Shown: piece after piece, positions 691 to 56,992 of the stretch | Layout of the letters: every line of letters starts with the position of its first letter | Position numbering within the stretch: the stretch's first letter is position 1 | Assembly (NCBI GenBank): GCA_018969585.1 | Contig: JAGWYB010000003.1 | Span: forward strand, 1 to 58,342 | DNA from: Actinomycetales bacterium | GTDB lineage: Bacteria > Actinomycetota > Actinomycetes > Nanopelagicales > Nanopelagicaceae | DNA: 58,342 nt | Direction: 5' to 3' | Program-made: the position numbers and the translations under genes | The notes under the pieces: model-generated | Seen by the model: only the letters and a program-made list of their open reading frames with translations | Told to the model about the DNA's origin: nothing | Database searches by the model: none

Positions 691-1460
691 AGGATGATTT
701 GCGATCGCACAAATTCAAGTGACTTCTGAAAAATAAACTCTGCGTCAAAATCTAAAGTAGCTACGTGAAATGAATTTTCCAGTTCAATTCTTCTTTTATC
801 AGCGCTTCCAATTTCGTCCATTATTATTTCGGTATTGCTGACGGGTAGAACATGATCTGCAACGCTATGGAATAAAAGTGTCGGAATCGAAATTGCCGGA
901 AGAACGGCGCGCGTCGCTTTCAAAAGCCGATTTAATTGCGCTACTCCTTTAGTTGGGAGGGCGTCGTAACCCCACTCGGTAGTTCTTGGTTTCTTTATGT
1001 CATCTCCGACAGATGGTCGCTTTGCGACTAGGTGCTTAATCAATTCGATGAAATGAATTGCTGGATCTTTGATATGAATCATGGGATTAACGAGAACTAT
1101 TCCTGAGACCTGTCCTGGTTTATGCGCAGCTGTATAAAGAGTGTTCGCACCACCCATAGAGAGTCCGAAGATAAATACGTGCGAGCATTCATTTTTCAAT
1201 TTCTCAAATTCGAGTGAAGCCTTCTCGGTCCATTCATTCCAGGTAACCTTATTGAGGTCCTGCCAACGGGTTCCATGTCCCGGAATGCGAGGCACGCGAA
1301 CGGTGCAACCATTTTGTGACAAAAAATCTGCCCAGGGTCGCATCGAAGCCGGTGAACCGGTGAAGCCATGTAATAAAAGAATGCCAATTTTTTCTAATTG
1401 GCCGTGGCCGCGACGATAGTAATCATCTAGCCAACCAGCCGGCGCTCCCTCTGTTGCCAT
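687..1460 (-). CDS. Alpha/beta hydrolase (carboxylesterase/lipase-like)
   Basis: LLLHGFTGSP oxyanion region, GLSMGG nucleophile elbow, C-terminal Asp/His (ADHVLP, SFHVATLD). Confidence 0.88.
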   Translation of the reverse strand: MATEGAPAGWLDDYYRRGHGQLEKIGILLLHGFTGSPASMRPWADFLSQNGCTVRVPRIPGHGTRWQDLNKVTWNEWTEKASLEFEKLKNECSHVFIFGLSMGGANTLYTAAHKPGQVSGIVLVNPMIHIKDPAIHFIELIKHLVAKRPSVGDDIKKPRTTEWGYDALPTKGVAQLNRLLKATRAVLPAISIPTLLFHSVADHVLPVSNTEIIMDEIGSADKRRIELENSFHVATLDFDAEFIFQKSLEFVRSQIIL

Positions 1461-1526
1461 CGGTAAAGAGTAAAGGAATGGCCCCTACGAAACGAGATTG
1501 TCGTAGTCATCTCGTAGATTCGCGCT

Positions 1527-3314
1527 ATGGCTTACTCGGAGCGCGACTATGGGGGCGATTTCGGTTGGCAACCATCTCTTGAAGAAGTTGATCTTCCACT
1601 CTCCGAAACTACTTTTGTCGTCATTGATCTCGAGACAACTGGCGGATCGCCTCGAGATTCCAAAATCACCGAAATTGGAGCAGTTAAGATTCGTGGCGGA
1701 GAGATCGTTGGCGAGTTTCAAACTCTCGTAAATCCTGATTCCCCCATACCGCCATTCATCACCGTACTCACGGGGATAACTGATGCCATGGTTGTCGCTG
1801 CCCCAAAAATTGGTGAAGCTCTTTTCTCATTGTTTGAATTTATCGGAAGTCCAATTGAAACTGTCTTAGTCGCCCACAACGCTCCATTTGATATCGGATT
1901 TCTCAAATCGGCGGCACAAAGTCTTGAATTGCCTTGGCCAAAGTATCAAGTTCTAGATACCGCTCGGATATCTCGATATGCCTTATCCCGCGATGAAGTT
2001 ATTAATTTTAAATTACAGACACTGGCAAATTTCTTTGGGTCATCCACAAATCCCGACCATAGAGCTCTCTCTGATGCCCGCGCCACAGTAGATGTATTTC
2101 ACGGAATTCTCGAAAGATTTGGATCCCTCGGAGTTTTCACGCTCTCCGATCTTAAAAATTACTCTAATCGAGTTACTGATTCGCAGCGTCGCAAACGCCA
2201 CTTCGCTGATGGGCTCCCAGCATCACCCGGCGTCTATATTTTTCGTGACGAACAAAATGAACCACTCTATGTGGGCACTACTAGAAATTTAAAAAATCGA
2301 GTTAAGAGTTACTTTACTGCGGCTGAAACTAGGCGGCGAATTCACGACATGATTTCATTGGCGACAAAACTCGACCATATAGAGACGCAGACGATTCTCG
2401 AGGCTGAAGTGAGCGAGCTACGATTAATTGCTCAATTTAAACCGCGTTTTAATCGACGATCTCGGTTTCCCGCTAGAGCAATTGCCGCAAAACTAACTCA
2501 CGACGATTTTCCGCGAATGAGCCAGGTGCGAGGCCTCCATCTGTTAGAGAGATCTGATAGTTGGTTGGGACCATTCAGTAGCCGAGACGAGGCGGCTCTT
2601 GCTATAGAAGCGATATATGAAGTCTTTCCGATTCGCCAGTGCACTTCGAGAATTACTCTAAAAAGTATGCGAACTGCCAGTCCATGCGCGCTCTTGGATA
2701 TTAATAAGTGTGGCGCTCCATGTATTGGTCTGCAATCAACTGAAACTTATTCATCCATCTCATCTGAAGTCGCAAACGCCATTGAAAATGATGCGCGAAT
2801 AGTCCACGGAAAGTTACACGAACGAATGCGCGATTTATCCCTTCACGAGAGATTTGAAGATGCCGCCTTGGTGCGAAATCGAGCGGGAGCTTTTGCCAAA
2901 GGAGCTGCTCGTAGCCAGCGGATACGCTCCTTGACCGAGATCAAAGAATTTATCGCGGCGCGAAAAAATGGTAACGAATGGGAGATTTTCCTAATTCAAT
3001 CCGGTCGCTTAATTACCTCACTCGTTACTAAATCTTCACCAAGAGGCTTGATTGAAGAAATCAGAAAGCGAAGCGAGAAGTTGGCGCCTTCCGACAAATC
3101 TTTGCCGGCCTCGACTCACGAAGAAGTTGAATTAATCCTGCGCTTTCTTTACAACAATCAGATTGAGATTCTCTTTACCTCTGAGCCATGGCAGAGCCCA
3201 GTCTTTGGTGGTGAGTATCTTCGTTCTAAACTAGACGAAAATCGCTTTAAGTCCGAGAGCCTTGGATACAAAGAAGATTTTTCGAATTCCTTTGAATTGT
3301 CGAGGCGTAAATAG
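1527..3314 (+). CDS. DEDDh exonuclease (DnaQ-like) fused to GIY-YIG/UvrC-like domain
   Basis: VVIDLETTGG, VAHNAPFDIGFL, HRALSDARATVD exonuclease motifs; PGVYIFRDEQNEPLYVGTTRNLKNRV GIY-YIG; UvrC-like Cys region and UVR motif. Confidence 0.92.
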   Translation: MAYSERDYGGDFGWQPSLEEVDLPLSETTFVVIDLETTGGSPRDSKITEIGAVKIRGGEIVGEFQTLVNPDSPIPPFITVLTGITDAMVVAAPKIGEALFSLFEFIGSPIETVLVAHNAPFDIGFLKSAAQSLELPWPKYQVLDTARISRYALSRDEVINFKLQTLANFFGSSTNPDHRALSDARATVDVFHGILERFGSLGVFTLSDLKNYSNRVTDSQRRKRHFADGLPASPGVYIFRDEQNEPLYVGTTRNLKNRVKSYFTAAETRRRIHDMISLATKLDHIETQTILEAEVSELRLIAQFKPRFNRRSRFPARAIAAKLTHDDFPRMSQVRGLHLLERSDSWLGPFSSRDEAALAIEAIYEVFPIRQCTSRITLKSMRTASPCALLDINKCGAPCIGLQSTETYSSISSEVANAIENDARIVHGKLHERMRDLSLHERFEDAALVRNRAGAFAKGAARSQRIRSLTEIKEFIAARKNGNEWEIFLIQSGRLITSLVTKSSPRGLIEEIRKRSEKLAPSDKSLPASTHEEVELILRFLYNNQIEILFTSEPWQSPVFGGEYLRSKLDENRFKSESLGYKEDFSNSFELSRRK

Positions 3315-3319
3315 AGGTT

Positions 3320-3751
3320 TTAGTTAGCGTCTCTAGCAGTGGCTAACGAACCAGCTTTTGATAAGACTGAAATCACGGTTTTGCCAATAGTGAATGGGTC
3401 GATTGGATGAGTGATTACTCCATCGGCTCTAGACCAGCCCGCCAACCAAGCATCTTGTGATCTAGCTACGACAACAATTGTGGGAGGGCAATTGAAGAGC
3501 TCATCTTTTAATTGCTTGGCCAGACCGAGACCGCCTTCTGGCGTCGCCTCGCCGTCAAGAATAAAGAGTGAAATCTTCTTACGATTCTCGCGATTGCTTT
3601 CTACCGCGAATAGCCGGAGAGCATCTGCCGTGGCAAAATCATGGATTTCATTCTCAGGAAACTCCGGAGATAGCCGCGCTCCAAGTGCCGTTCGTAGCGA
3701 TTGTCGAACGGTGGAATCGTCTGAGTAGATAACTATCAACAACTTTGACAT
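3320..3751 (-). CDS. Stand-alone degenerate response-regulator receiver domain
   Basis: LLIVIYSDDS and SLFILDGEA (phosphoacceptor-like Asp); switch Thr and conserved Lys positions altered. Confidence 0.65.
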   Translation of the reverse strand: MSKLLIVIYSDDSTVRQSLRTALGARLSPEFPENEIHDFATADALRLFAVESNRENRKKISLFILDGEATPEGGLGLAKQLKDELFNCPPTIVVVARSQDAWLAGWSRADGVITHPIDPFTIGKTVISVLSKAGSLATARDAN

Positions 3752-3860
3752 AACAGGAAGAGTCTAGAGGCAGATTCGTGATGAGTCTCACCGGTGACCG
3801 GGCTCCCATTTGCCGGGGCGGAGTGGGCAGTTAGCCTCACTTTTGCGGAATAATCAAGGT

Positions 3861-4484
3861 ATGTCCAGCTCAGTAGCCATAGCCCGACCCAATAGGCCGA
3901 ACATTGTTGCGGTCGGAACAATTGTTTGGCTGGCCAGTGAATTGATGTTCTTCGCTGCACTCTTTGCAATGTATTTCACTACGCGAGCTGTTCAAGGACC
4001 TGAGAAATGGGTCGAGGGCGTTGAAATGCTAAATATTCCGTTCTCTGCAATAAACACTACCGTGCTGGTTCTCTCTTCAGTGACTTGCCAATTTGGAGTG
4101 TTTGCAGCGGAAAGATTCCAAAACTCTAGGGCTGGAAGTATCTTTCAATTATCAAAATGGGGAATGCGAGAATGGTTTGCCCTGACTTTTGCAATGGGAG
4201 CATTTTTCATTGGTGGCCAGGTCTATGAATACGCAGAATTAGTTCACGAAGGATTAACACTCTCTTCCTCGCCTTACGGATCGGTTTTCTACCTTCCCAC
4301 TGGATTTCACGGTCTACATGTAACGGGCGGCTTAATTGCGTTTTTAATCGTTATGGTGCGCGTTTCTAAGGCGAGAAAATTTGGGCACCAACAAGCAACT
4401 ACTGCGATTGTCGTCTCTTATTACTGGCACTTTGTTGACATAGTCTGGATTGCGCTCTTCTCCGCAATCTATCTGGTGCATTAA
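3861..4484 (+). CDS. ctaE: Cytochrome c oxidase subunit III
   Basis: COX3 family sequence ([19 protein letters not shown]..., [24 protein letters not shown]); ATG at 3861 preferred over ORF-track start 3810. Confidence 0.95.
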
Positions 4485-5302
4485 TGAATCCAATCTCTCG
4501 AATTATTGCAAGGCTCTCCAGATATCGCCGCCATAAATTTGCTGGTCCAGCGCTGCTTATCGCAGGACTCTCAATTGCAGGTATTGGTTTCTCAGTGGCG
4601 CAAGCCGCAACCACAGAAATTCAAAAGGTAACGACTTCGGATAAGGCCTCGTTAATCGCGGAAGGAAAAGAAATATTCGCCCGCGGATGTTCATCGTGTC
4701 ATGGATTAAATGCCGAGGGCGCCGGCGCTGCACCGTCGCTTATAGGTGTTGGAGCGGCTTCTGTTGATTTCCAGGTGGCTACTGGTCGTATGCCGATGGC
4801 TGATATGAGCCAACAGGCAATGCGGAAAGAGCCGGTTTACAACGAAGCGGAAGTTGCCGCGCTAGCTGCTTATGTTGCCTCGTTGGCGCCAGGACCCGCT
4901 GCAGTTACGAATGAGGAATTGGCCTGGGAGCGAAGTGGCGACACGGCTCTTGGCGGAGAACTGTTCCGAACCAATTGCGCAATGTGTCACAACTTAGCGG
5001 GCCAAGGTGGCGCGTTAACGCAAGGTAAATATGCCCCGACAGTTATGGGCGTTGAACCAAGACATATTTATGAAGCGATGGTTACCGGTCCGCAAGCGAT
5101 GCCAGTCTTTGCAAATACTGTGTTAACTCATGACGAGAAGCTTTCAATCATTAAGTGGATTAAACACGCAGAAAATGAACCTGCACTTGGCGGCGCTGCG
5201 CTAGGCCGAGTTGGCCCGGTCACGGAAGGGCTTCTGGCTTGGACCTTAGGACTTGGATTGTTAATTGGTATTGCCGTCTGGTTAACTACGAAGGCTCGGT
5301 AA
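4484..5302 (+). CDS. qcrC: Diheme cytochrome c subunit of cytochrome bc1
   Basis: Two CXXCH motifs (CSSCH, CAMCH), N- and C-terminal TM, position between ctaE and qcrA. Confidence 0.94.
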   Translation: MNPISRIIARLSRYRRHKFAGPALLIAGLSIAGIGFSVAQAATTEIQKVTTSDKASLIAEGKEIFARGCSSCHGLNAEGAGAAPSLIGVGAASVDFQVATGRMPMADMSQQAMRKEPVYNEAEVAALAAYVASLAPGPAAVTNEELAWERSGDTALGGELFRTNCAMCHNLAGQGGALTQGKYAPTVMGVEPRHIYEAMVTGPQAMPVFANTVLTHDEKLSIIKWIKHAENEPALGGAALGRVGPVTEGLLAWTLGLGLLIGIAVWLTTKAR

Positions 5303-6310
5303 ATGATGAATAATGAAAATAGCGGCGCGATAGAGAAGTTAAGTGATCCGGGATTACCCGAACACATTCATCGCAAGACTGATGTTGATCCTAGGGCAGC
5401 TAAAAAGGCTGAACGTCAAGTTTCAATACTCTTTGCGTTATCGGCTTTTGGAACTCTGCTCTTTATTTACTCATACATCTGGATTCCAGAAGATACATTT
5501 ATTTTCTTACCGATAACCGGGACTACGAATGCACATCAACTATTTCTGGGCCTTGGCCTTGCCATGGCGCTCTTCTTTATCGGTATGGGTGCAGTTCATT
5601 GGGCAAAAACTCTTATGCCAGATCACGAAGTTGTCGACTATCGAAAAGAACAACGCTCAAAAGATGAGGACCGTGCCGCGCTAGTTGCTACGGTTAAAGA
5701 GGGTGCCGCAAACGCTGGTCTTGGCAGAAGGCCGCTAATTAAGCGCACTATGGGTTTGGCCCTCGGTCTAGTTGGTCTTTCGCCACTACTACTTCTTCGA
5801 GATCTTGGACCGCTTCCCGAAAATGAATTAAATGAGACAAATTGGAAAGCAGGAACGCGACTCGTAACAGATCCGGGCGATCGACCCATTCGACCTTCCG
5901 ATTTAGAAGTTGGCGGAGTTGCCCAAGTCCAACCGGCTTTCCCGCAGGGAAAAGTCAGACACCTTGATGACATCGCAAAAGACTCAGTTCTCTTAATCAG
6001 AATTAGACCCGAGGAATTTAATCTTGACGCAGAAAGGCTCTCTTGGACATACCAGGGAATTATTGCCTTCTCCAAAATCTGCTCACATATGGGCTGTGCT
6101 GTGGCTCTCTACGAACAGACTACAAAGCATCTGCTCTGTCCATGCCATCAATCAACTTTTGATGTGACTCGTGCTGCCAAAGTTATCTTTGGACCGGCGG
6201 CCAGACCTCTGCCACAATTGCCAATTACTGTCGACAGCGAGGGTTACTTGGTTGCGCAAGCGCCATTTAATGAAGCAGTTGGCCCGAGTTTCTGGGAGCG
6301 TGATTCATAA
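5303..6310 (+). CDS. qcrA: Rieske iron-sulfur subunit of cytochrome bc1
   Basis: Rieske motifs CSHMGC and CPCHQS; actinobacterial three-TM N-terminus. Confidence 0.95.
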   Translation: MMNNENSGAIEKLSDPGLPEHIHRKTDVDPRAAKKAERQVSILFALSAFGTLLFIYSYIWIPEDTFIFLPITGTTNAHQLFLGLGLAMALFFIGMGAVHWAKTLMPDHEVVDYRKEQRSKDEDRAALVATVKEGAANAGLGRRPLIKRTMGLALGLVGLSPLLLLRDLGPLPENELNETNWKAGTRLVTDPGDRPIRPSDLEVGGVAQVQPAFPQGKVRHLDDIAKDSVLLIRIRPEEFNLDAERLSWTYQGIIAFSKICSHMGCAVALYEQTTKHLLCPCHQSTFDVTRAAKVIFGPAARPLPQLPITVDSEGYLVAQAPFNEAVGPSFWERDS

Positions 6311-7903
6311 GTGAGTGCACGGGAACGCCTTGCCGGCGGTACAGCCAACTTTATCGATGAGAGAACTGGCGCTGCTAAATGGATGAAGAAGACTTTAACA
6401 AAAGTCTTTCCGGATCACTGGTCATTTATGCTCGGTGAGATTGTCATGTATTCCTTTGTCATTCTTTTACTCTCAGGAACTTTCCTAACATTCTGGTTTG
6501 ACCCATCAATGAAAGAAGTTGAGTACGAGGGTTCCTATGAACCACTCAGCGGCGTAAAGATGTCTGCGGCTTATGCTTCCACTCTCAATATCTCTTTCGA
6601 TGTTCGTGGTGGTCTATTGATGCGACAGATTCATCACTGGGCAGCCCTTATCTTTATGGCAGCTATGGTGATTCACATGATGCGGGTATTTTTTACCGGT
6701 GCATTCCGCAAACCTCGTGAATTGAATTGGATTATCGGAGTTGCTCTTTTAACTCTCGGCATCGTTGAAGGCTTCCTTGGCTATTCACTTCCAGATGATT
6801 TGCTCTCCGGCACTGGTATCCGAATTGCTGAAGCAATAATTCAGGCAATTCCAGTTGTTGGTTCATATCTTGCTTACTTTGTATTCGGCGGGGCATTCCC
6901 AGGAGAAGTATTCATTCAACGTATTTATACAGTTCACATACTTCTAATTCCTGGAATCATGCTCGCTCTAATTACAGCTCACTTGATGTTGGTCTGGTAC
7001 CAGAAGCACACCCAATATCCCGGTCCTGGTCGAACCGAAAAGAATGTCGTCGGTTATCCATTAATGCCGGTTTATATGGCTAAGGCCGGTGGTTTTTTCT
7101 TCATAGTATTTGGCGTCACTGCTTTCCTTGGAGCGGTCGCATCGATAAATCCAATATGGATCTTTGGTCCGTACAACCCAGGACAAATCGGAGCTGGCTC
7201 ACAGCCAGATTGGTATATGGGCTGGCTGGATGGTCTAGTCCGCTTAGCTCCACCAATAGAGACTCACGCCTTTGGTTACACCATCTCCTGGAATATTTTA
7301 ATTCCTGGACTGATTGTTCCCGGAATTATTTTCACACTTCTCGCCTTCTACCCTTTTATTGAACAATGGATGACCGGCGATAAGCGAGAACACCACATTC
7401 TCGACCGTCCACGTAATAATCCAAATCGCACTGCGATTGGCGCCATGTCACTCACATTTACCCTAGTGGCACTTATCAATGGCGGTAATGACTTAATTGC
7501 GACTCATTTTGATCTTTCGATAAATCAAATTATGTGGTTCTCGCGGATCGGAATTATCATTTTGCCGCCATTGGCATTTGTAATTACAAAACGCATCTGT
7601 CTCTCTTTGCAACGAGCCGACCGAGAATTAGTTCTCCACGGTCGTGAAACTGGTCGCCTAGTCATGCTTCCTCATGGTGAATTTATCGAAGTCCACGAAC
7701 CGCTCTCGCCGCAAAAGGCTTATCTGCTTACTCACCATGAACAGAACCCGCCACTAGCGTTAACGAATGAGGACGCTCAAGGTGTAGCAAACCCGCAAGG
7801 AATTAAGGGTCGCGTTCGCTCAAGAATGTCGCGTGCGGCGCAAGAGCAAATTACGAAGCCAACCGCTAAAGAGGTATTGGAAATTGAAGAGGGTCATCAC
7901 TAA
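6311..7903 (+). CDS. qcrB: Cytochrome b subunit of cytochrome bc1
   Basis: Cytochrome b sequence with RQIHHWAA, GYSLPDDLLSGTG; GTG start. Confidence 0.95.
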   Translation: MSARERLAGGTANFIDERTGAAKWMKKTLTKVFPDHWSFMLGEIVMYSFVILLLSGTFLTFWFDPSMKEVEYEGSYEPLSGVKMSAAYASTLNISFDVRGGLLMRQIHHWAALIFMAAMVIHMMRVFFTGAFRKPRELNWIIGVALLTLGIVEGFLGYSLPDDLLSGTGIRIAEAIIQAIPVVGSYLAYFVFGGAFPGEVFIQRIYTVHILLIPGIMLALITAHLMLVWYQKHTQYPGPGRTEKNVVGYPLMPVYMAKAGGFFFIVFGVTAFLGAVASINPIWIFGPYNPGQIGAGSQPDWYMGWLDGLVRLAPPIETHAFGYTISWNILIPGLIVPGIIFTLLAFYPFIEQWMTGDKREHHILDRPRNNPNRTAIGAMSLTFTLVALINGGNDLIATHFDLSINQIMWFSRIGIIILPPLAFVITKRICLSLQRADRELVLHGRETGRLVMLPHGEFIEVHEPLSPQKAYLLTHHEQNPPLALTNEDAQGVANPQGIKGRVRSRMSRAAQEQITKPTAKEVLEIEEGHH

Positions 7904-8373
7904 CCCTTCTCTTCCACCAATCTTTTAAGTCTCACTAGGCTCTTGGCCATCGCTTTTTCAACATACTTATATGCATTTCTTCTTCGTAGCCACCATTGAT
8001 AAGGCGAAGGCCTGCCGTCAAAACTCTCTACGACTCTAGTCTGACCATTTCCTAGATCCGTCAGCTCATATCGCCAAACCCATTTTCCAAGGTGTCGCCA
8101 AGCGATTAATTTGTTTTGATTGAACTCGATAACATAATTTGTGATCCGATATGGAATCCCGATCCTCATTCTCATCCCAAATTTAGAACCTAAAGTTAAC
8201 TTCTCTGGGCCCCAATTTACGCTTTTCACTGAGTTTGAACCATCAATAAGTGGATGTTTAGCTGGATCGATTAGAAGTTCGAAAACCTCAGAAGGGCGAC
8301 CGTTGATATCAATCTGGGCAGCTTTCACCTTTGGGTGGCCCGTATTTAATATTTCAGAGCGAATTTCAGCCAT
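7900..8373 (-). CDS. SRPBCC/START-like lipid-binding domain protein
   Basis: AAQIDINGRPSEVFELLIDPAKHPLIDGSNSV...; likely ATG at 8373 overlaps the ctaF stop (ATGGCTGA). Confidence 0.8.
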   Translation of the reverse strand: MAEIRSEILNTGHPKVKAAQIDINGRPSEVFELLIDPAKHPLIDGSNSVKSVNWGPEKLTLGSKFGMRMRIGIPYRITNYVIEFNQNKLIAWRHLGKWVWRYELTDLGNGQTRVVESFDGRPSPYQWWLRRRNAYKYVEKAMAKSLVRLKRLVEEKG

Positions 8374-8770
8374 GGTTGCTTGAGTTTGGCTTCTCGTATT
8401 CGAGAACAAAACCCATAATTGAAACAATTAATGCGCCAACGGCGATAAGCGTCATCCACCAACCAATTACAAGACCAAGTCCAACTGCAGTTGCAGAAGC
8501 GGCAACTGGAAGAGGCCACCATGAGTGTGGGCTGAAAAATCCCAATTCACCGGCGCCATCCGCAATTTCTGCGGTCAAGTTATCTTCTGGAAGGACGCCT
8601 CCGGTTCGGCGATTGGAGAACCAGAAGTAGTAACCAATGATCAATGCCAATCCGGCGCTCAACGCAAGTGCGGTAATGCCGACTGGCTCATTTGCCATCT
8701 GCCAATACACGACGGTTACAAGCGCGTAGAAAAAGAAGAGGAAGAGAAATAGCTGGTAGCCAAATTTCAT
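8366..8770 (-). CDS. ctaF: Cytochrome c oxidase subunit IV (actinobacterial CtaF)
   Basis: Four-TM small protein directly downstream of ctaD; PHSWWPLP motif. Confidence 0.85.
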
Positions 8771-11189: not shown

Positions 11190-11245
11190 CCGCTAAGGAT
11201 AGTAGTCACTCGCGGTGGCGCCGATTAGGAGGTAGCGTTCCAAGG

Positions 11246-12325: not shown

Positions 12326-12338
12326 GTGCAGAAACTTT

Positions 12339-12680: not shown

Positions 12681-12736
12681 CTCGACTCCTATCGATTCAA
12701 ATCCGAGTTTACTCTTTAGCAGAGGATAATGCTGCC

Positions 12737-13885
12737 ATGGCCAAAATTCTCTCTGAACTCCATCTATTAGGAACTGAGTCAGACCTTTCCAGCGAACGAG
12801 GAGTTTCCTGTACGGGTGATCTTCCAGAGCCTAGCGACCCTAAGATGGTTGAGCGTGCCATCGCTGCAAAAGCAAAATTGGGAGATCGCGCGCTAATACT
12901 TGGCCATCATTATCAACGCGATGAAGTAATCGAATTTGCAGACATCACAGGTGATTCATTTAAGTTAGCCCGAGCCGCCGCAGATCGAGGAGATAGTGAG
13001 TACATCGTTTTCTGCGGAGTGCATTTCATGGCAGAGAGTGCGGATATTCTCACCAGCCCAAAACAGCAAGTAATACTTCCTGATTTGGCGGCAGGCTGTT
13101 CCATGGCAGATATGGCGGCGGCAAATCAAGTTAAAGATGCCTGGAAGATATTTGAAAAATTGGGAATTGCACAACGCACAATTCCGATTACCTACATGAA
13201 CTCGAGTGCGGCTATAAAAGCATTTACTGGTGAAAATGGAGGAAGCGTCTGCACCTCATCAAATGCGGAACGGGCTATGAGATGGGCGCTTGAGAAAGGT
13301 GAGAAAGTCTTCTTTCTCCCCGACCAACATCTTGGTCGCAATACCGCTGTTCTTAGACTTGGATTTTCGTTAACGGATTGCGTCGTATGGAATCCATGGA
13401 AAGCTAATGGCGGATTGACTGATGATGAAATTCGCAGCGCAAAGATAATTCTCTGGCGGGGCCACTGTTCAGTTCATGGTCGCTTCACAATTGAGAATGT
13501 AAACGAGATGCGAAGCCGCGTGCCGGGCGTCCAAATTTTGGTACATCCAGAATGCCAATACGAGGTCGTGAGCGCTGCCGATGTTGTTGGAAGTACAGAG
13601 AGCATCATCAAAACAATCGAAAACGCCCCTCAAGGCTCATCGTGGGCGATTGGAACTGAACTCAATCTCGTTAAGCGGCTGGCGCAAGATAACCCTGAAA
13701 AACAGATCACCTTTCTGGATAAAACAGTCTGTTACTGCTCCACCATGAATCGAATTGATCTACCACATCTGGTCTGGGCGATGGAATCCCTCGTCCGCGG
13801 AAAAGTAATCAACCAGATCCAAGTTCCTGAGAAAATTGCCAAAGCGGCAAGAGTTGCGCTCGAGCGCATGCTCGCTCTACCTTAA
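12737..13885 (+). CDS. nadA: Quinolinate synthase
   Basis: LILGHHYQRDEVIEFADITGDSF, VHPECQYEVV, KTVCYCSTMNRI. Confidence 0.95.
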   Translation: MAKILSELHLLGTESDLSSERGVSCTGDLPEPSDPKMVERAIAAKAKLGDRALILGHHYQRDEVIEFADITGDSFKLARAAADRGDSEYIVFCGVHFMAESADILTSPKQQVILPDLAAGCSMADMAAANQVKDAWKIFEKLGIAQRTIPITYMNSSAAIKAFTGENGGSVCTSSNAERAMRWALEKGEKVFFLPDQHLGRNTAVLRLGFSLTDCVVWNPWKANGGLTDDEIRSAKIILWRGHCSVHGRFTIENVNEMRSRVPGVQILVHPECQYEVVSAADVVGSTESIIKTIENAPQGSSWAIGTELNLVKRLAQDNPEKQITFLDKTVCYCSTMNRIDLPHLVWAMESLVRGKVINQIQVPEKIAKAARVALERMLALP

Positions 13886-13890
13886 CTCTC

Positions 13891-14409: not shown

Positions 14410-14415
14410 ACTGAA

Positions 14416-15417: not shown

Positions 15418-15444
15418 AGGCTGTAGATTAGCGGCAAGTAGCTT

Positions 15445-16548: not shown

Positions 16549-16565
16549 TCCAATAACCTAGCCCA
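16549..16565. promoter_or_regulatory. Compact divergent leaderless promoter between gcvT and pepA
   Basis: Top strand TAACCT (16554-16559)+6 nt+ATG 16566; bottom strand TAGGTT (16560-16555)+6 nt+GTG 16548. Confidence 0.65.
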
Positions 16566-26463: not shown

Positions 26464-26539
26464 AACTCACAATCCTAGAGCAGCGGTAAGAGCAAGCCCG
26501 CCTGCGACGACACATCAGTATTGAAAGTAGGCTAAGGGG

Positions 26540-29892: not shown

Positions 29893-29917
29893 GGCTGAAC
29901 GCTAGCCCAGCTGCGCG

Positions 29918-33596: not shown

Positions 33597-33640
33597 GCCT
33601 TAAATCTAGGGGGAAACACGAAGGTGTTTTCGCGATATCT

Positions 33641-33669
33641 TTGCAGATGCAAACGATTTGCAATAAGAT
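33641..33669 (+). promoter_or_regulatory. Candidate promoter of NiCoT gene with Nur-like box in the spacer
   Basis: TTGCAG-N17-TAAGAT followed by 6 nt then ATG 33676; ATGCAA-N5-TTGCAA at 33647-33663. Confidence 0.65.
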
Positions 33670-36398: not shown

Positions 36399-36422
36399 CT
36401 CATAATCCTACAGATGCAAGCA

Positions 36423-39970: not shown

Positions 39971-39982
39971 GCCAAAAACAGA

Positions 39983-41158: not shown

Positions 41159-41159
41159 C

Positions 41160-41898: not shown

Positions 41899-41922
41899 CA
41901 AAAAGTTTCTCCGGAGAAAGGT

Positions 41923-42969: not shown

Positions 42970-42970
42970 C

Positions 42971-43234: not shown

Positions 43235-43236
43235 CT

Positions 43237-44859: not shown

Positions 44860-44902
44860 CGATAAGCAATGTATCCATAACTATTTGATAGATAATTGGT
44901 AA

Positions 44903-45538: not shown

Positions 45539-45575
45539 CCCAAGTTTGTCAGTCCGCAACGGCACAATCTCGCCC

Positions 45576-47012: not shown

Positions 47013-47070
47013 GGGGTTAATTTACGACCCCCGTGCCTTGACCTGACAAACCTGTGACAAAATCGAGCGT

Positions 47071-49133: not shown

Positions 49134-49135
49134 GA

Positions 49136-49570
49136 TTATCCTTCTAATTTAGACTTTAATTGAGCTAGAGCCACTTCGATAGTTGCCATCTCCGCTTTTC
49201 TGCGCATCATGTCTGGAACTGGCATTGAGACTTGGACGTTTAAACTGTAAGTAACATCGCAACTATCACCGTTATCTTTAATTGAATAACTTCCGGTCAT
49301 CTCAGTCATGAGGTCGGCTTCTTCGAGGGTGAATGAGATTGAATTTGGAAATGCGGAGTAGTCGTAATTTAATTTTGCGCGATCCTTTAGTACGCCCGCT
49401 TCAATCTTCACCGTAGCTGAAGTGGGACGACTTGAACCGTCACGTTCATGAACCTCTACGCTCTTGATGGCAGACGACCATTTAGGAAAACTCTCAAGGT
49501 CTGCCAAGGTTGCCGCCACATCGCTGGCCGAAGCCTCGATCGTTACGGTCTTTGAAGAAATTTCTGCCAT
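49136..49570 (-). CDS. SRPBCC family protein
   Basis: VTIEASASDVAATLADLESFPKWSSAIKSVEV polyketide cyclase/START-like N-terminus. Confidence 0.85.
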   Translation of the reverse strand: MAEISSKTVTIEASASDVAATLADLESFPKWSSAIKSVEVHERDGSSRPTSATVKIEAGVLKDRAKLNYDYSAFPNSISFTLEEADLMTEMTGSYSIKDNGDSCDVTYSLNVQVSMPVPDMMRRKAEMATIEVALAQLKSKLEG

Positions 49571-49621
49571 AGGGTGAGGTTACCTCTTCCGATAGGTGCC
49601 CACTACCAGTAGTTTTCCGCC

Positions 49622-51409
49622 ATGACTGAATTCTTCGTCCCAGCACTTGAACCGGCGGCTACCGCGGGAAATCTAACCAACCTAATCGCTGAGCGCGCCT
49701 GGTTTGAACCAGAGCGCATAATGGTTTCGCGTCCTCTGGGTGATGGATGGCAGCCAGTTAATGCCCGTGAGTTAGAAGCAGAAGTGCGAGCGACGGCCAA
49801 GGGATTAATTGCATCCGGAGTTGAAATTGGAGATCGCGTCGCCATCATGGCGCGTACTCGCTATGAATGGACGATTCTTGATTTCGCCATCTGGTTTGCT
49901 GGCGGAGTTCCTGTGCCCATTTACGAAACATCGTCACCAGAACAAGTCGACTGGATACTCACTGATTCGCACTCCGTTGCGATCATTGTTGAGACGCCAC
50001 AGCTCAAAGAATTAGTTGCACCAGTTCTTCCAAGTTTCACCAAGAACTGTTGGACTATGACCGAAAATGTTCTCTCTCAATTATCTTATTTAGGCCGCGA
50101 TATTTCAGATGCTGAGATTGATCGTAGACGGAGCGCGTTAACGCCGGACACTCTTGCTACATTAATTTATACCTCAGGAACTACCGGCAAACCCAAAGGT
50201 GTCCAGTTAACTCATGGCAACTTCCTCTCGGAATGCGGAAATGTTGTGATGGGAGCCTCAGATTTATTCTTAAAGCCAGGAGGCTCAACCCTCTTATTCC
50301 TTCCAGTTGCACACGTATTTGGTCGCATGGTGCAGATTGGTTCGTTGCGCGCTGGATTACATCTTGCTCATTGTGGAGATGTCCTAGGCCGTCTCACTAC
50401 TGATCTCGCCTCGTTTAAGCCGACCTTCGTGTTAGCTGTCCCAAGAATATTTGAGAAGGTTTACAACAGCGCTGAATCTAAAGCCGAGGCAGCCGGAAAA
50501 GGTGCAATTTTCCGCAAAGCAGCAAATATCGCAATTGAATATAGCCGCTCACTTGATGAAGGCAAAGTACCTCTTGGTTTAAAGGTTAAGCACGCACTCT
50601 TTGATCGCCTGGTTTATTCGAAAATTAGAAATGGACTTGGCGGTCGAGTTGAGGCTGCGATATCCGGCGGCGCTCCCCTTGGCGAAAGACTTGGTCATTT
50701 CTTCCGAGGCGCAGGTGTTCGAGTTCTCGAGGGTTATGGCCTTACTGAAACAACAGCCGGTGCTACTTTGAATCTGACTACAGCTCACAAAGTTGGCTCG
50801 GTGGGAAGACCAATTCCTGGCACCACAATAAAAATTGCCGATGATGGTGAAGTTCTCATCAAGGGACCAATTGTGATGCGCGGTTACTGGCAGAACGATG
50901 CTGCAAATAGTGAAGTCTTCTCGGAAGATGGCTACTTCAAATCTGGTGATTTAGGAAAGCTGGATGAGGAAGGTTATCTATACATAGTGGGACGTAAGAA
51001 AGAGTTAATTGTTACTTCCGGCGGAAAGAATGTCGCTCCCGCAGTACTTGAAGATCGACTCCGCGCTCATCCACTTGTGAGCCAATGTATCGTCGTTGGA
51101 GATAATCAACCTTATATCGCAGCCTTGATAACGATAGATCCTGAATCAATAAAGGGATGGATTACTGCGAATAAAAAAGATGGCGCAACAGTCGCCGACT
51201 TAACTAATGATCCAGATCTTATTTCAGTAATTCAAACTGCTGTTGATGAGGCTAACAAAGCGGTAAGTAGAGCTGAATCAATTAGGAAATTCAAGATTCT
51301 TCCCGTTGACTTCACAATTGCCGGTGGACATTTAACCGCCAAACTTTCAGTTAAGCGTCACGTAGTTCAAAAGGAGTTTGCTTCCGAGATCGCAGAGCTC
51401 TTTGCCTGA
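49622..51409 (+). CDS. Long-chain fatty acid-CoA ligase (FadD15-like)
   Basis: LIYTSGTTGKPKGVQLTH, GYGLTETTAGATLN, YFKSGDLGKLDEEGYLYIVGRKKELI. Confidence 0.94.
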   Translation: MTEFFVPALEPAATAGNLTNLIAERAWFEPERIMVSRPLGDGWQPVNARELEAEVRATAKGLIASGVEIGDRVAIMARTRYEWTILDFAIWFAGGVPVPIYETSSPEQVDWILTDSHSVAIIVETPQLKELVAPVLPSFTKNCWTMTENVLSQLSYLGRDISDAEIDRRRSALTPDTLATLIYTSGTTGKPKGVQLTHGNFLSECGNVVMGASDLFLKPGGSTLLFLPVAHVFGRMVQIGSLRAGLHLAHCGDVLGRLTTDLASFKPTFVLAVPRIFEKVYNSAESKAEAAGKGAIFRKAANIAIEYSRSLDEGKVPLGLKVKHALFDRLVYSKIRNGLGGRVEAAISGGAPLGERLGHFFRGAGVRVLEGYGLTETTAGATLNLTTAHKVGSVGRPIPGTTIKIADDGEVLIKGPIVMRGYWQNDAANSEVFSEDGYFKSGDLGKLDEEGYLYIVGRKKELIVTSGGKNVAPAVLEDRLRAHPLVSQCIVVGDNQPYIAALITIDPESIKGWITANKKDGATVADLTNDPDLISVIQTAVDEANKAVSRAESIRKFKILPVDFTIAGGHLTAKLSVKRHVVQKEFASEIAELFA

Positions 51410-51962
51410 TCGTTTGGACCTTGCGCGCCGACTCCATGACGGGCCGGCGCAGCAAATTGTTGCTCTTGGATTATCCCTTGATGAGGTTATTTCTAATCCA
51501 ATTCTCAATGACGAGACTCGCATTCACTTGCGAAAAATCCGATTAGATTTATTTTCGCTCAGTCAATCTCTAAGAGATGAAATCTATCTTCTACGATCAA
51601 GATCTTTCATCGAACTCGAAACGTCAATACGCGAAATTCTTGGAGATATAAGAATTAATATTGAATTGCCGAAATTAATATTAAATCAATTCAAAGAAGA
51701 TGCAATTGTGCGATCAATTAGTGAAATAGCTCGTAACAGCGCGCGTCACTCCGGATGTGATGAATTTAATCTAAGCTCACAGGTTAGTGGAAATACTTTG
51801 ATCATTGAAATTTCTGACAATGGAGTCGGTGGAATCTCTCACTCTGAGCGAACCTTTGGTATCCATTCCATCACTGAAGCAATTGAAGTTATCGGCGGTA
51901 CGGTTACCTGGGAATCTGACGGCGCGGGGTCTCGCTATAGATTGATTATTGGTTTGGAATGA
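51402..51962 (+). CDS. Minimal HisKA_3-type histidine kinase without sensor domain
   Basis: ARRLHDGPAQQIVALGLSL H-box; EIARNSARHS, ISDNGVGG HATPase motifs; candidate TTG start overlaps fadD stop. Confidence 0.85.
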   Translation: MPDRLDLARRLHDGPAQQIVALGLSLDEVISNPILNDETRIHLRKIRLDLFSLSQSLRDEIYLLRSRSFIELETSIREILGDIRINIELPKLILNQFKEDAIVRSISEIARNSARHSGCDEFNLSSQVSGNTLIIEISDNGVGGISHSERTFGIHSITEAIEVIGGTVTWESDGAGSRYRLIIGLE

Positions 51963-52579
51963 GCATTCGAATTCTGGTCGTTGACGATCACATTTTGGTG
52001 AGGGAAGGTCTTCGCAGAGCGCTCTCTCGAGAGAAAGAATTCTCCGTAGTTGGCGAAGCAGCCACTAAACGAGAGGCCTTGGTGCAAATTCCTCATCACA
52101 GTCCGGATGTACTTGTTGTAGATCTTCATCTACCTGATGGAAATGGACTCGAAGTGATTGCATGGGCAAGAGCTCTCTCACAGCAAATGGGTATCGTTGC
52201 ATTAACTTTCTCTAAATTTCCGGAACACATATTGGCATGTATGGAATCTGGAGCGAGTTCTTACGTTGATAAATCCGCGCCGATCAGTGAATTAATTACG
52301 GCAATTAGGTCAAGTTCGACTAACCCACTTACATTTACTGCTCGAAAAATTACCGACGCAATTTCTCTAAAGAATCAAAGTGTTGGTTTAACTGCTCGAG
52401 AACTAGAAATTCTTGAGATCCTTCCTACCGGGGATACCGTTTTACAAATGGCTCAACATCTTTTCGTTACTGAGTCCACAATAAAAACTCATCTAGCGGC
52501 TATTTATCGAAAGCTGGGAGCAGCAAATCGAGTTCAGGCTATAAACGCAGCAAGAAAATTAGGGCTGTTGCATCATTAA
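51959..52579 (+). CDS. NarL/FixJ family response regulator
   Basis: ILVVDDHILVREGLRRAL, VLVVDLHLPDG, LuxR HTH TARELEILEILPTG...TESTIKTHLAAIYRKLGA. Confidence 0.95.
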   Translation: MSIRILVVDDHILVREGLRRALSREKEFSVVGEAATKREALVQIPHHSPDVLVVDLHLPDGNGLEVIAWARALSQQMGIVALTFSKFPEHILACMESGASSYVDKSAPISELITAIRSSSTNPLTFTARKITDAISLKNQSVGLTARELEILEILPTGDTVLQMAQHLFVTESTIKTHLAAIYRKLGAANRVQAINAARKLGLLHH

Positions 52580-52580
52580 A

Positions 52581-53729
52581 TTATTTAACTGAAAACTTCA
52601 ATAACTTATTAAACTCTTCGGCCCAAAATTCCCAATTCCAATTCTTTGTTGCGAACTCTCTCGCTCGCTGGCTCATTGTCGAGCGCAATTCTTGATTCCT
52701 TAAGAGCTGGAGAGATCTCTCGGCAATTTCTTCAACATCTTCGCCGTTAACAACAAATCCAGTCTCACCGTGAATGACCGCATCAGGAGCTCCTCCGGAA
52801 TTTCCAACAATTACAGGCAGGCCACATGCGCTTGCCTCCAAATAAACAATTCCCAACCCTTCAACTTCTAGACCAAACAATCTCGTTCGTGCAGGCATAA
52901 CGAAGAAATCACCAACAGATAGAAAACTCGGGAGTTCCTCATAACTTATTCGACCTAGGAATTTCACATTCTCGGTTAAATTCAATTTCTTACAGATATC
53001 TTCGAGTTCCGGTCGATGAGGTCCTTCACCAATAAGCAATAGTGTTACATCTGGGAATTCCTGTTTAATAATAGGGAGCGCTTCTATTAGACGATCTTGA
53101 CCTTTCCGATGAACTAGCCGCCCCACCGAAACAATTACTGGAACTTTCAATAAATTCAATTTTTCTCTTAACTCAGCTCCTCGAGGACGGAAATGTTGCA
53201 CATCTATTCCAGGGGCAATTTGTACAAGTTTCTCGGTTGGGACAGCTTTCGAAATTGCGCCAGCAGTGAAGGACCCGAGATATCCGAAGTTATCAATATG
53301 TCTGGAGCTAAAGCGAAGTAACCATGAGAAGGGAGGAATTTGCGCCCACCAAACTTCATGGCCATGGGTAAGTGCAACTATTTTCCGTACACCGTCCAGG
53401 CGCAGCCATTTTGCTGATATTCCAAGTGGGGCCGCAGCTCCAAACCAAACGAACTCAATTCCCTTATCTCTAATTGTTCTACGGAGCGCAGCCACAACTC
53501 TCGGCGTTGGTAAGAGAATGCGGCTTCGATCTCGAACTACTTCTACGCCAAATTTTTCTCGCCAAAGGTTGTCGTAATCTTCGGTATGAGATTGCTTTGA
53601 AGTGTAAACAGTTACTTGAGAATCAGTTAACCGCTCTAGTAATCCTATGATAAAGGTTTCGATACCGCCGGCACGCGGTCCGAAATCATTAGTCACAAGT
53701 AATACTCGAACAGACTTTTCCTTAGAGAC
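52581..53729 (-). CDS. Glycosyltransferase family 4 (PimB'-like); true start uncertain (GTG 53696 or non-canonical GTC 53729)
   Basis: VRVLLVTNDFGPRAGGIETF, VSVGRLVHRKGQDRLIEALP, VVYLEASACGLPVI-type GT4 motif. Confidence 0.88.
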   Translation of the reverse strand, partial: VSKEKSVRVLLVTNDFGPRAGGIETFIIGLLERLTDSQVTVYTSKQSHTEDYDNLWREKFGVEVVRDRSRILLPTPRVVAALRRTIRDKGIEFVWFGAAAPLGISAKWLRLDGVRKIVALTHGHEVWWAQIPPFSWLLRFSSRHIDNFGYLGSFTAGAISKAVPTEKLVQIAPGIDVQHFRPRGAELREKLNLLKVPVIVSVGRLVHRKGQDRLIEALPIIKQEFPDVTLLLIGEGPHRPELEDICKKLNLTENVKFLGRISYEELPSFLSVGDFFVMPARTRLFGLEVEGLGIVYLEASACGLPVIVGNSGGAPDAVIHGETGFVVNGEDVEEIAERSLQLLRNQELRSTMSQRAREFATKNWNWEFWAEEFNKLLKFSVK

Positions 53730-54735
53730 GGCGAGCTCCTACATATTTTTTCCGACCGAAGAAATTTCCAAATTCAGCAATCTGAACTCTCGCTCCTGGT
53801 CGCGGCGCATGCACCATCTTGCTCTTGCCGATATAAATTCCAACATGAGAAATCGGACTACCAAAGAAGACTAAATCTCCTGGAATTAAATTACCGCGAG
53901 CAACTGAGCGACCGTAACCAAATTGGGCTCTAGAGGAGTGAGGTAATCGGACGCCGGATTGTTGGAAGGCTCTCATGGTTAATCCGGAGCAATCCCACTT
54001 GATCGGACCGGATGCCCCCCATACATAGTTATCGCCAATTTGTTTGACTGCATATCTAAGTGCAATGCCTGCTCTACCGGAAACGGTATTTGCGAGTCGA
54101 GCTTGTTCTTTCGAATATTTCTCTCTCGCATCTTCATCCATTGCTTGTAGGCGAAGTAATCTTTCGCGATCGGCTTTCTCCAATCTAGAGAGCAACTTTT
54201 CAGCAGCGGCTAACTTCTGTTCGACTTGAGCTGCTTGGGCTCGATAGCGCGCTTCTGCTGCTTTAACTAAGCTCAATTTATCGCCCACAGTGAGTGAAGT
54301 GGCATCGAGTCTCTGTTTTGCGATAGCAAATTGTCGTAATTTCAAAGATTGTTTACGAGTTACGCTCTCGAGGGATCCTGCAGCAGAGAGATAAAGAGTT
54401 GGGTCTGATGAGAAGAGAAGTTCAACGCTTTCGCCAAGTCCAGTCGATTTGTAGCGAGCGACCGCGATTGAGGCGAGAGATTTTCTAATCTCATCGACAT
54501 TTTCTTTCTGACTTGCGGCTTCTTGCTGTACTGAGGCGAGCTGTTTTTGCAGGCGACCTAATTCAATTTTTGCGGCCTGGGCATTTTCGCCGGCTTCAGC
54601 AGCGTCTTCCTGGAGCCGTTCAACTTCCGCTCGCACTCTTAATAAATCGGCGTTAGGAGCCGCAGTGGCAGGGGGCGCCAGAGTTATTGCTAGCGCTGCT
54701 GAGAGCAGCGAGGCCAGGATCTTTGAGCGGGTCAT
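53722..54735 (-). CDS. NlpC/P60 peptidoglycan endopeptidase with coiled-coil N-terminus
   Basis: Signal peptide, coiled coil, WDCSGLTMRAFQQSG, LPHSSRAQ, PGDLVFFGSPISHVGIYIG. Confidence 0.94.
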   Translation of the reverse strand: MTRSKILASLLSAALAITLAPPATAAPNADLLRVRAEVERLQEDAAEAGENAQAAKIELGRLQKQLASVQQEAASQKENVDEIRKSLASIAVARYKSTGLGESVELLFSSDPTLYLSAAGSLESVTRKQSLKLRQFAIAKQRLDATSLTVGDKLSLVKAAEARYRAQAAQVEQKLAAAEKLLSRLEKADRERLLRLQAMDEDAREKYSKEQARLANTVSGRAGIALRYAVKQIGDNYVWGASGPIKWDCSGLTMRAFQQSGVRLPHSSRAQFGYGRSVARGNLIPGDLVFFGSPISHVGIYIGKSKMVHAPRPGARVQIAEFGNFFGRKKYVGARRL

Positions 54736-54767
54736 CGCTTTAGGCTAACTGCGTTCCCTGGGAGGGC

Positions 54768-54998
54768 TCAACCTGAGAGGGATTCCCCCGCCTGGGTGTT
54801 TTCTTGGAGTTCAAATCTAAGCGGCGGAACCATTCCTCGCGAGGCTAGTAGGTCGATAACTCGAGACTCCTCGTTGCCCATCGAGCGAGGATTTCCGATC
54901 AAGACCGAAACCACGCAGTCATCGCACTTAATATCTCGCACTACACATGAGTCGCAATCAATGATCATGTCGAAGAAGATATAGAGGGGCACTGACAT
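54768..54998 (-). CDS. Small Cys4 protein (CXXC-X6-CXXC), conserved-hypothetical type
   Basis: MSVPLYIFFDMIIDCDSCVVRDIKCDDCVVSVLIG...LLASRGMVPPLRFEL; lies between NlpC/P60 and the RibD-like gene; internal ATG preferred. Confidence 0.65.
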   Translation of the reverse strand: MSVPLYIFFDMIIDCDSCVVRDIKCDDCVVSVLIGNPRSMGNEESRVIDLLASRGMVPPLRFELQENTQAGESLSG

Positions 54999-55017
54999 CC
55001 TCAGTACCTTTGCGGCT

Positions 55018-55527
55018 GTGTCGAATGCAACTGGATCAATAGTGCGCGCCAACCTCATCCTCGCGGCAAATGGGGCGACGATGCTTGATGGCAGTTCTAG
55101 GCCGTTGAGTCCCAAGGCCGATCGGGAGCGATTTCACTTATTGCGAAGCCAGGCTGATGTGATTTTGATTGGTGGCAGAACTTACAGCTCTGAACCATAT
55201 CGAGGAATTTCCCAGCCGCTACTTGTTGCAAGCCGTACTCTGAGCCAGCACGAACCAGGAGTTGAATTTCACAACTGTTCGCCCGTTGATTTAGTTGCGA
55301 TTGCCAAGAATCGATATCACTCAATATTAATTGAAGGAGGGATAAATTTCTTAAACAGTCTCATTCCTGCCAAAGTAATTGATGAAGTTTTTCTGACAAG
55401 AGTCAGCATAGATGGCGATGGATATATCTTTGATGAGGGTGATTTACGGCAAAACTACCTTCTGCGCTCAGAGGAAATTCTTGAAGACCTGAGTTTCGAA
55501 CGGTGGGATATTAACCCGCAGAGATAA
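55018..55527 (+). CDS. Dihydrofolate reductase/RibD C-terminal family protein
   Basis: VRANLILAANGATMLDGSSRPLS, VILIGGRTYSSEPY, ILIEGGINFLNSLI. Confidence 0.88.
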   Translation: MSNATGSIVRANLILAANGATMLDGSSRPLSPKADRERFHLLRSQADVILIGGRTYSSEPYRGISQPLLVASRTLSQHEPGVEFHNCSPVDLVAIAKNRYHSILIEGGINFLNSLIPAKVIDEVFLTRVSIDGDGYIFDEGDLRQNYLLRSEEILEDLSFERWDINPQR

Positions 55528-56362
55528 AGGCCACTCCAGCTACTGCAAAGGCGATGCCAAGGTATTGAACTCTATGAAGTCTTTCTCCTAGGAATCTAAA
55601 GGCCAATATTGAAGTGACTATCGGGAAGAGGGAACCGAGAACCATTGCAATTGAGACTAGACCTTTAGTGGTAGCTACTCCGAGTAAGAAATTTGCGAGA
55701 AAATCAGCGATACCTATAAACAACAAAGTAGGTAGATCACCTCTAGCGAAACCGCCAAGCGACTTTGCGCGAAGTGCGATGAAAATACAGATAGTCACTG
55801 AAGCCAATCGCATAGTTGTCATGGTGTGCAATGAATCAACTCTTGCCCCAATAGCGATAAAAGTTAGCGCTCCGCCAAATCCCAGCGCTGCTATAACCGC
55901 AAAAATTAGCGGCCGAATAGGTAAACCACCTTTTACTTCTGGTCCACTCGCCAAGAAAGCGCCAAGCAATGCAACTATGAGCCCAAATGTTTGCAAAGAA
56001 GAAGGTCTTTCGCCTCCGAGAAAAGCGACTGTTAACGGTATTACAGCGGCAAGTGAGGCAATCGGGCTTACTACGCCCATTCTTCCCGTAGCTAGCCCGG
56101 TATAAAAAGCGAGTAGTCCGATAAATCCGGAGATTCCTGCAATGACTCCGGGGATGAAATAACCCGAGAAACTTAAATTGGGAGTTATAAATTCACGACC
56201 GAAAATTAAAGTTGCAAGAATTGCAAAAACGCCAAAAAGTAAACCGAAGAATTGTGAAACGCCAGTTACTGCGATTGAGCGATAACTCTTGGAAAGGTTC
56301 CCAGCCAAGTAATCCGCTGTTCCCCAGAGCAGGCTTGAGAAAAGCGCCAGAATCGAACCCAT
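55511..56362 (-). CDS. EamA/DMT superfamily transporter
   Basis: Ten-TM pattern, LLWGTADYLAGNLSK, EamA repeats. Confidence 0.88.
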   Translation of the reverse strand: MGSILALFSSLLWGTADYLAGNLSKSYRSIAVTGVSQFFGLLFGVFAILATLIFGREFITPNLSFSGYFIPGVIAGISGFIGLLAFYTGLATGRMGVVSPIASLAAVIPLTVAFLGGERPSSLQTFGLIVALLGAFLASGPEVKGGLPIRPLIFAVIAALGFGGALTFIAIGARVDSLHTMTTMRLASVTICIFIALRAKSLGGFARGDLPTLLFIGIADFLANFLLGVATTKGLVSIAMVLGSLFPIVTSILAFRFLGERLHRVQYLGIAFAVAGVAFISAG

Positions 56363-56434
56363 AACGGCAACCTACCTGATGGCATCCCCACGCGCCTTCC
56401 GCCCCAGCCGCACCAATTCTCCTACCCTTAGGTT

Positions 56435-56992
56435 GTGGCGAAAGATGGCATTCAATTTCAGAAATTTTGTAGTGAAGCAAGAGCGATGCGTTTTCGACCA
56501 GAAATTTCAATCACTGAGGTTCCAGCTCCTCAAAAATTAGCTCCCTTTTCTATTGCCTTTAGCGCCGATGTGATTATTAAAGATGATGATGTTGCAACTG
56601 GACGTTTTGTAATGCTCCATGATCCGAATGAACAAGAGGCTTGGTCTGGGACTTTTCGATGTGTTACTTTCGTAAGATCAGCCGTAGAAAGTGAGATGCA
56701 ATCTGATCCATTGATGTCAGATGTCGCCTGGACCTGGTTTCAAGATTCCCTAAAAGAGTCGGGTGCGGATAGCAAAGAAACAAGTGGAACCGTAACCCGA
56801 GTTTCTAGCGCATCTTATGGACAAATGGCTGATACCGAACATTCCGCTGAAATAGAAATCCGCGCTTCGTGGACTCCAATTTCTGCAAACCATTTAGAAA
56901 AACATTTCCAAGCTTGGGCCAGGCTCCTTGAAGTATCCTCCGGATTGACGCCTCTAGCTGACGGCGTTACTTCCTTAACGCAAAGGAATTAA
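56435..56992 (+). CDS. DUF3000 family protein
   Basis: RFRPEISITEVPAPQKLAPFSIAFSADV; directly upstream of the RNase D gene as commonly seen in actinobacteria; GTG start. Confidence 0.85.
   Translation: MAKDGIQFQKFCSEARAMRFRPEISITEVPAPQKLAPFSIAFSADVIIKDDDVATGRFVMLHDPNEQEAWSGTFRCVTFVRSAVESEMQSDPLMSDVAWTWFQDSLKESGADSKETSGTVTRVSSASYGQMADTEHSAEIEIRASWTPISANHLEKHFQAWARLLEVSSGLTPLADGVTSLTQRN

Follow-up and report, generated by a model that had tools for sequence, protein, structure and literature searches.

We analysed the window, a 58,342-nucleotide (nt) stretch of DNA from an actinobacterium of the family Nanopelagicaceae (GenBank assembly GCA_018969585.1, contig JAGWYB010000003.1, positions 1 to 58,342, forward strand), and found that many of its genes carry a TANNNT hexamer that ends exactly 6 nt, sometimes 7 nt, before an ATG or GTG start codon. 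These hexamers very probably are the −10 elements of housekeeping-sigma promoters from which RNA synthesis starts on the start codon itself, i.e., the mRNAs would be leaderless. Because no leader is needed, such promoters would be tightly packed: gcvT and pepA would share one symmetric −10 element, and at many short same-strand junctions the stop codon of the upstream gene lies within the hexamer of the next.

Results

The window corresponds to contig C57 in a 1.1-Mb metagenome-assembled genome (MAG; 67 contigs, 81% complete, 46% GC) that belongs to acI, a streamlined freshwater lineage. The sequence analysed had 1,094,707 bases, of which 47,898 were N, and 937 genes were called with a 3-periodic Markov caller that leaves upstream signals unused. 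In the window, we took as motif-blind start that of the longest open reading frame (ORF). Pfam agreed with the names of the window genes wherever tested.

With motif-blind starts, TANNNT was present at a gap of 6 nt in 15 of the 32 unit heads of the window, whereas every other gap from 0 to 25 held 0–3 such hexamers, about one per offset, and only one of 29 internal genes had it at gap 6 (binomial p ~5e-15 for the heads versus a 3% background). Since every gap-6 match in the head set sat at a longest-ORF start, the choice of starts did not create the signal. Genome-wide, the motif stands at gap 6 before 69 of 220 divergent heads, compared with 6, 11, 12 and 11 at gaps 5, 7, 8 and 9 and an average of about 3 at gaps of at least 11. 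Same-strand genes carry it in 41 of 218 cases (about 18%) when the spacer is at least 20 nt and in 38 of 442 (8.6%) when it is shorter; the control for each gene class was about 3–4 motif counts per offset. The odds ratio between divergent heads and close same-strand genes is 4.9 (p 5e-13), and in total 148 of 880 genes have the strict gap-6 motif. An expectation-maximization model of the divergent heads returned the motif TAgnnT (T 0.87 at −12, A 0.96 at −11, T 0.93 at −7) with a mixing fraction of 0.38, and the excess over control offsets was 0.30–0.34.

An earlier note on this DNA had proposed the geometry as a rule at operon heads in contrast to internal genes. The control count, now run for window and genome, bears out that TANNNT at −12 to −7 is commoner than at other offsets and than before internal genes. 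The peak at operon heads is thus real, but it covers only roughly a third of them, with the window on the rich side, and the contrast between heads and internal genes is not clean, as 8.6% of close same-strand genes carry the signal as well. The individual sites were all found where the earlier note had placed them: 16 strict hexamers with a gap of 6 nt before RTG, three near-matches at the same gap (GATAAT twice, AATAAT) and three TANNNT hexamers at gap 7 (11246+, 15417−, 55018+). They are given below together with one further site; unless noted otherwise, hexamers are strict TANNNT at gap 6.

1467–1472, minus strand: −10 TACTCT, hydrolase gene (start 1460), from the window offset count
1515–1520, plus strand: −10 TAGATT, RNase_T/GIY-YIG (dnaQ-uvrC like) gene (start 1527)
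3849–3854, plus strand: near-match AATAAT, not strict, ctaE (COX3; start 3861, longest ORF from an upstream TTG at 3810)
11196–11201, minus strand: −10 TATCCT, ctaC (COX2; start 11189), orthologs compared
11233–11238, plus strand: −10 TAGCGT at gap 7, class-V aminotransferase-like gene (start 11246)
12725–12730, plus strand: near-match GATAAT, not strict, nadA (start 12737)
13878–13883, plus strand: −10 TACCTT at gap 7, DUF3043 gene (start 13891), absent from the earlier list
13883–13885, plus strand: stop codon TAA of nadA, overlapping the DUF3043 −10, read from the sequence with relatives compared
15425–15430, minus strand: −10 TAATCT at gap 7, aldo/keto reductase gene (start 15417)
16549–16565, both strands: gcvT/pepA intergenic region of 17 bp, putatively the entire bidirectional leaderless promoter around a symmetric TAACCTA, from sequence and relatives
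16555–16560, minus strand: −10 TAGGTT, gcvT (start 16548), orthologs compared
16554–16559, plus strand: −10 TAACCT, pepA (start 16566), 5-bp overlap with the gcvT −10
26528–26533, plus strand: −10 TAGGCT, lipB (start 26540), orthologs compared
29899–29904, minus strand: −10 TAGCGT, RDD gene (start 29892)
33603–33608, minus strand: −10 TAGATT, EamA gene (start 33596)
33664–33669, plus strand: −10 TAAGAT, NicO (NiCoT) gene (start 33676)
36405–36410, minus strand: −10 TAGGAT, enoyl-CoA hydratase gene (start 36398)
44891–44896, plus strand: near-match GATAAT, not strict, lysE (start 44903)
47019–47024, minus strand: −10 TAAATT, acyltransferase gene (plsC; start 47012)
49577–49582, minus strand: −10 TAACCT, SRPBCC (Polyketide_cyc2) gene (start 49570)
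49610–49615, plus strand: −10 TAGTTT, fadD (AMP-binding; start 49622)
54742–54747, minus strand: −10 TAGCCT, NlpC/P60 gene (start 54735)
55005–55010, plus strand: −10 TACCTT at gap 7, RibD_C-like gene (start 55018)
56369–56374, minus strand: −10 TAGGTT, EamA gene (start 56362)
56423–56428, plus strand: −10 TACCCT, DUF3000 gene (start 56435)

Genes with the motif also differ from the others in their translation signals. A Shine–Dalgarno (SD)-like sequence precedes 12 of the 148 motif genes, which is the background level, versus 216 of the 732 other genes. TTG starts occur once among the former (101 ATG, 46 GTG, 1 TTG) versus 140 times among the latter. The 16S tail with the anti-SD was not found in the source assembly. 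A positional search for a −35 element found no information upstream of these −10 hexamers.

Both the hexamer and its distance to the start codon are conserved within the family. In gcvT orthologs, TANNNT occurred at gap 6 in 59 of 78 and at gap 7 in the other 19; in lipB orthologs it stood at gap 6 in 38 of 41, with the hexamer TAGGCT in 35. The two gaps were found in 9 and 11 of 20 ctaC orthologs and in 17 and 12 of 39 aldo/keto reductase orthologs, and three of four orthologs of the class-V aminotransferase-like gene had gap 7. For nadA, only about 10 of 42 orthologs had a strict TANNNT at either gap. Orthologs of motif-less neighbours in the window did not carry the motif at all (0/79 for 18126+, 0/61 for 19520+, 0/56 for 21226+). 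Beyond single loci, the gap-6 motif was found at 28 of 94 divergent heads in IMCC25003, at 12–44% in other acI genomes (small samples), and more weakly, at 15, 8 and 3%, in three high-GC members of the class; in E. coli it was seen at 0 of 30. A raw cross-genome count of TARNNT-gap-RTG that ignored gene context was too noisy and was dropped.

At the gcvT/pepA locus, the start codons of the two divergent genes lie 18 bp apart, and their hexamers (TAGGTT, TAACCT) have 5 bp in common within the symmetric TAACCTA. With the start codons taken as transcription start sites (TSSs), positions −7 and −11 are reciprocally shared at 18 bp, as in symmetric −10 promoters. The intergenic region measures 17 bp in all, and each of the two RNAs would begin on the start codon of its gene. 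This compact form is kept in 13 loci, the window included. Among pairs with a PepA identity below 75%, identity is 95% over the 17 intergenic bp, with variation at only 2 of 17 positions, versus 35% at fourfold-degenerate sites. In other genera, gcvT mostly retains its −10, and the spacer before pepA usually is longer and often contains an SD-like GGAG. Among acI genera, pepA appears to have switched between leaderless and SD-led initiation (L077 and others) while the divergent gcvT stays leaderless. There was no genome-wide peak at 18 bp among the 110 divergent pairs of the source genome, where one pair is spaced by 18, two by 23 and one by 24 bp; read from the sequence, these pairs share −10 bases. 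Five called divergent pairs have start codons only 1–6 bp apart, which means either miscalled starts or promoters inside the opposite genes.

The closest relative of the window PepA (89%) is encoded by the MAG of an actinobacterium sampled from surface water, and further relatives carry the names acI, Nanopelagicaceae or Planktophila. Six MAG records titled 'Bifidobacterium breve' (L009, L017, L022, L024, L050, L066) encode an acI-type PepA with 63–65% identity to that of the window. Another two records, with the title 'Streptomycetaceae' (L031, L078), look like the same case. The organism names of these MAGs probably are wrong.

Same-strand neighbours in the source genome showed a further regularity. 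A spacing of 9 nt occurs in 21 pairs, versus two pairs at 8 nt and one at 10 nt. At 9 nt, all 21 upstream stop codons are TAA or TAG and none is TGA (p ~1e-5), and in 18 of 21 the stop forms the first three bases of a gap-6 TANNNT. Given that the stop already supplies TA, a T at −7 is expected in about 27%, compared with 18 of 21 seen (p ~3e-8). The 9-nt pairs are largely housekeeping genes; judging from their proteins, we take them to include xseA–xseB, pgk–tpiA, coaX–lysS, mutM–smc, dnaN–recF, an SDR gene–leuS and folP–folB. Of the three exceptions, one is pgk–tpiA, which reads TAGGAA and lacks the strict motif; in the relatives compared, neither pgk–tpiA nor dnaN–recF had the motif. Between species, the overlap is kept at three 9-nt junctions while other motif bases change. 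In a sister species, TAGAAT is retained at one 9-nt junction, and TAAGTT at mutM–smc is replaced by TAGGTT; the lgt–VIT1-like junction reads TAGTAT, TAGGCT and TAGAGT in three genera.

Counting both gaps, the stop lies within the hexamer of same-strand motif genes in 21 of 80 cases in the source genome, 9 of 38 in IMCC25003 and 4 of 30 in other acI genomes, versus 28 of 571, 27 of 220 and 15 of 192 motif-less genes with a stop at the same place. This excess is partly mechanical because a TAR stop supplies the TA. Overlap is more frequent than TA sharing explains in the source genome, and more weakly so in IMCC25003, where 5 of 9 nine-nt junctions carry the motif; in the pepA-locus pool, 3 of 12 have T at −7. 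In another register, TAGGGT precedes the start at C31:51161+ in the source genome and in G061, G071 and G062, and the final T of the hexamer is also the first base of the upstream TAG or TGA; these junctions likely are orthologous.

The nadA–DUF3043 junction illustrates this arrangement in the window. The DUF3043 gene appears to be operon-internal, beginning 5 nt after nadA, and the nadA stop starts with the final T of the DUF3043 hexamer. Among 48 relatives of this locus, 47 carry TANNNT with a gap of 6 or 7 nt. The upstream stop could be placed in 43 of them, at offset 5 (TACCKTAR) in 20 and at offset 2 (TATART) in 17. The overlap is hence kept in 37 of 43, and in the remaining six the stop lies elsewhere with the DUF3043 −10 still there. 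The DUF3043 promoter is the constant part, and the stop codon shifts among the registers that it offers.

Discussion

The leaderless reading of the hexamers is much the best one because TANNNT at −12 to −7 equals the −10 geometry mapped in Mycobacterium tuberculosis. RNA polymerase would initiate 6 nt, sometimes 7 nt, past the hexamer, on the first base (A or G) of ATG or GTG, at ordinary housekeeping-sigma promoters with a −10 and no recognisable −35, and translation would proceed on mRNA that has neither leader nor SD site. We estimate that this may apply to about 30–40% of divergent heads, 18% of spaced and 8% of close same-strand genes. The earlier note's interpretation is supported by what we directly observe, i.e., the position of the hexamers in a sharp gap-6 peak, their enrichment at heads and their conservation, and the depletion of SD-like sequences and TTG starts. 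The 18-bp distance at gcvT/pepA also agrees with it. The uniform spacing, which that note had regarded as the standout feature, is not unusual; it is typical of actinobacterial leaderless promoters. Several points weigh against this reading. About 60% of divergent heads lack the signal, the MAG is incomplete (81%) and contains about 48 kb of N, and the caller's starts are motif-blind yet unverified, so that TTG depletion may come in part from wrong TTG calls. Moreover, the TSSs, like sigma identity and translation mode, are deduced from sequence.

That the weak TANNNT motif merely reflects chance, or starts picked to fit it, can practically be dismissed. Such hexamers are frequent and the earlier note had no control count, but motif-blind starts gave 15 of 32 versus about one per other offset in the window and 69 of 220 versus about 3 in the genome, and motif and spacing are conserved between species; offset and ortholog controls hence refute this explanation. 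It is very improbable that the hexamer instead is an A/T-rich ribosome-binding element in leadered mRNA. Its constant distance to the start codon would suit such a role, and the Fibrobacteres–Chlorobi–Bacteroidetes group has known non-SD A/T-rich sites. The hexamer, however, is rare at close same-strand genes, although translation is needed there too, it is identical to the mapped mycobacterial −10, and the 18-bp sharing by divergent genes fits RNA polymerase symmetry. A more serious, if still unlikely, alternative is that the promoters are real but initiate a few nt upstream or are accompanied by leadered promoters, with leaderless mRNA as one of several forms. Gaps 7–9 are slightly enriched (11, 12 and 11 of 220), and both mRNA types exist at some M. 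tuberculosis genes (PMC3898074), whereas gap 6 dominates sharply and gap 5 is near background.

Regarding the same-strand junctions, we lean slightly towards the view that in acI the −10 traps the upstream stop codon (at offsets 0, 2 or 5), with stop and promoter forming one element under double selection. An upstream frame running into the −10 would find a stable stop codon there, and on a read-through mRNA the ribosomes ending at this stop could in addition reinitiate on the gene that follows. Alternatively, these junctions might be a by-product of ordinary operons in which TAA or TAG gives TA and a nearby T completes a false motif, which we consider rather doubtful. With a TAR stop at −12, only the T at −7 is needed, and the modest fractions in IMCC25003 and the pepA-locus pool would agree with this. 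In the source genome, by contrast, both the frequency of T at −7 and the lack of TGA argue against it. Moreover, the 9-nt spacings themselves are in excess, the motif is retained at mutM–smc and lgt–VIT1-like while other bases change, and the DUF3043 −10 persists in 47 of 48 loci, whether the stop occupies one of the two registers or another place. If the −10 does trap the stop, genes at 4–10 nt spacers, which distance-based operon calling joins, would each have their own promoter, so that many gene pairs now merged would be separately transcribed; on read-through mRNA, ribosomes that finish the preceding gene a few nt upstream may gain access to such genes as well.

The leaderless finding extends known biology to the most abundant freshwater bacteria, and the rule could be useful for correcting gene starts and for reading acI metatranscriptomes. 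The junctions matter more: a streamlined genome would fit promoters into 9–17 bp by sharing bases with a stop codon or with a second promoter. Searches of the open-access literature for leaderless genes with a stop codon/−10 overlap or a divergent shared promoter turned up no prior report, which is weak evidence and not proof of novelty.

In M. tuberculosis, 73% of primary TSSs have TANNNT 7–12 bp upstream, a −35 motif was not detected, and about a quarter of the genes with a primary TSS are leaderless, with a purine start (Cortes et al. 2013, PMC3898074). The genes described here resemble these in TANNNT spacing, lack of a −35 consensus and purine start, although that work mapped TSSs in a high-GC pathogen, whereas here they are predicted for a freshwater lineage of 46% GC. 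An in-silico survey (Zheng et al. 2011, PMC3160421) assigned about 20% of genes in Actinobacteria to a 'TA-led' class, in which TAnnnT precedes the start by about 10 bp; this is similar to our strict genome-wide share. In its accessible text, that survey does not cover the acI genomes, conservation and junction types treated here. At symmetric −10 promoters, as described by Warman, Grainger and colleagues, divergent TSSs most often lie 18 bp apart, since −7 and −11 then coincide reciprocally, and 23 bp is also common (PMC12825309, PMC10268837). The gcvT/pepA region likewise combines a shared −10 with this modal distance, which therefore lends independent support to the start codons as TSSs. 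One symmetric −10 would serve both genes within 17 bp and, unlike in the published cases, would be leaderless on both sides; PMC10268837 never uses the word leaderless. Finally, where spacers are short, a stop codon is known to overlap the SD site of the gene that follows (PMC2784483). The junctions described here are alike in that the stop doubles as an expression signal for the next gene. That signal is a ribosome site on RNA in the published case and would be a promoter −10 on DNA here, an overlap that the accessible part of that paper does not mention. Leaderless transcription as such is thus a known actinobacterial habit, and the shared −10 of gcvT/pepA and the overlap of stop codons with −10 hexamers go beyond it.

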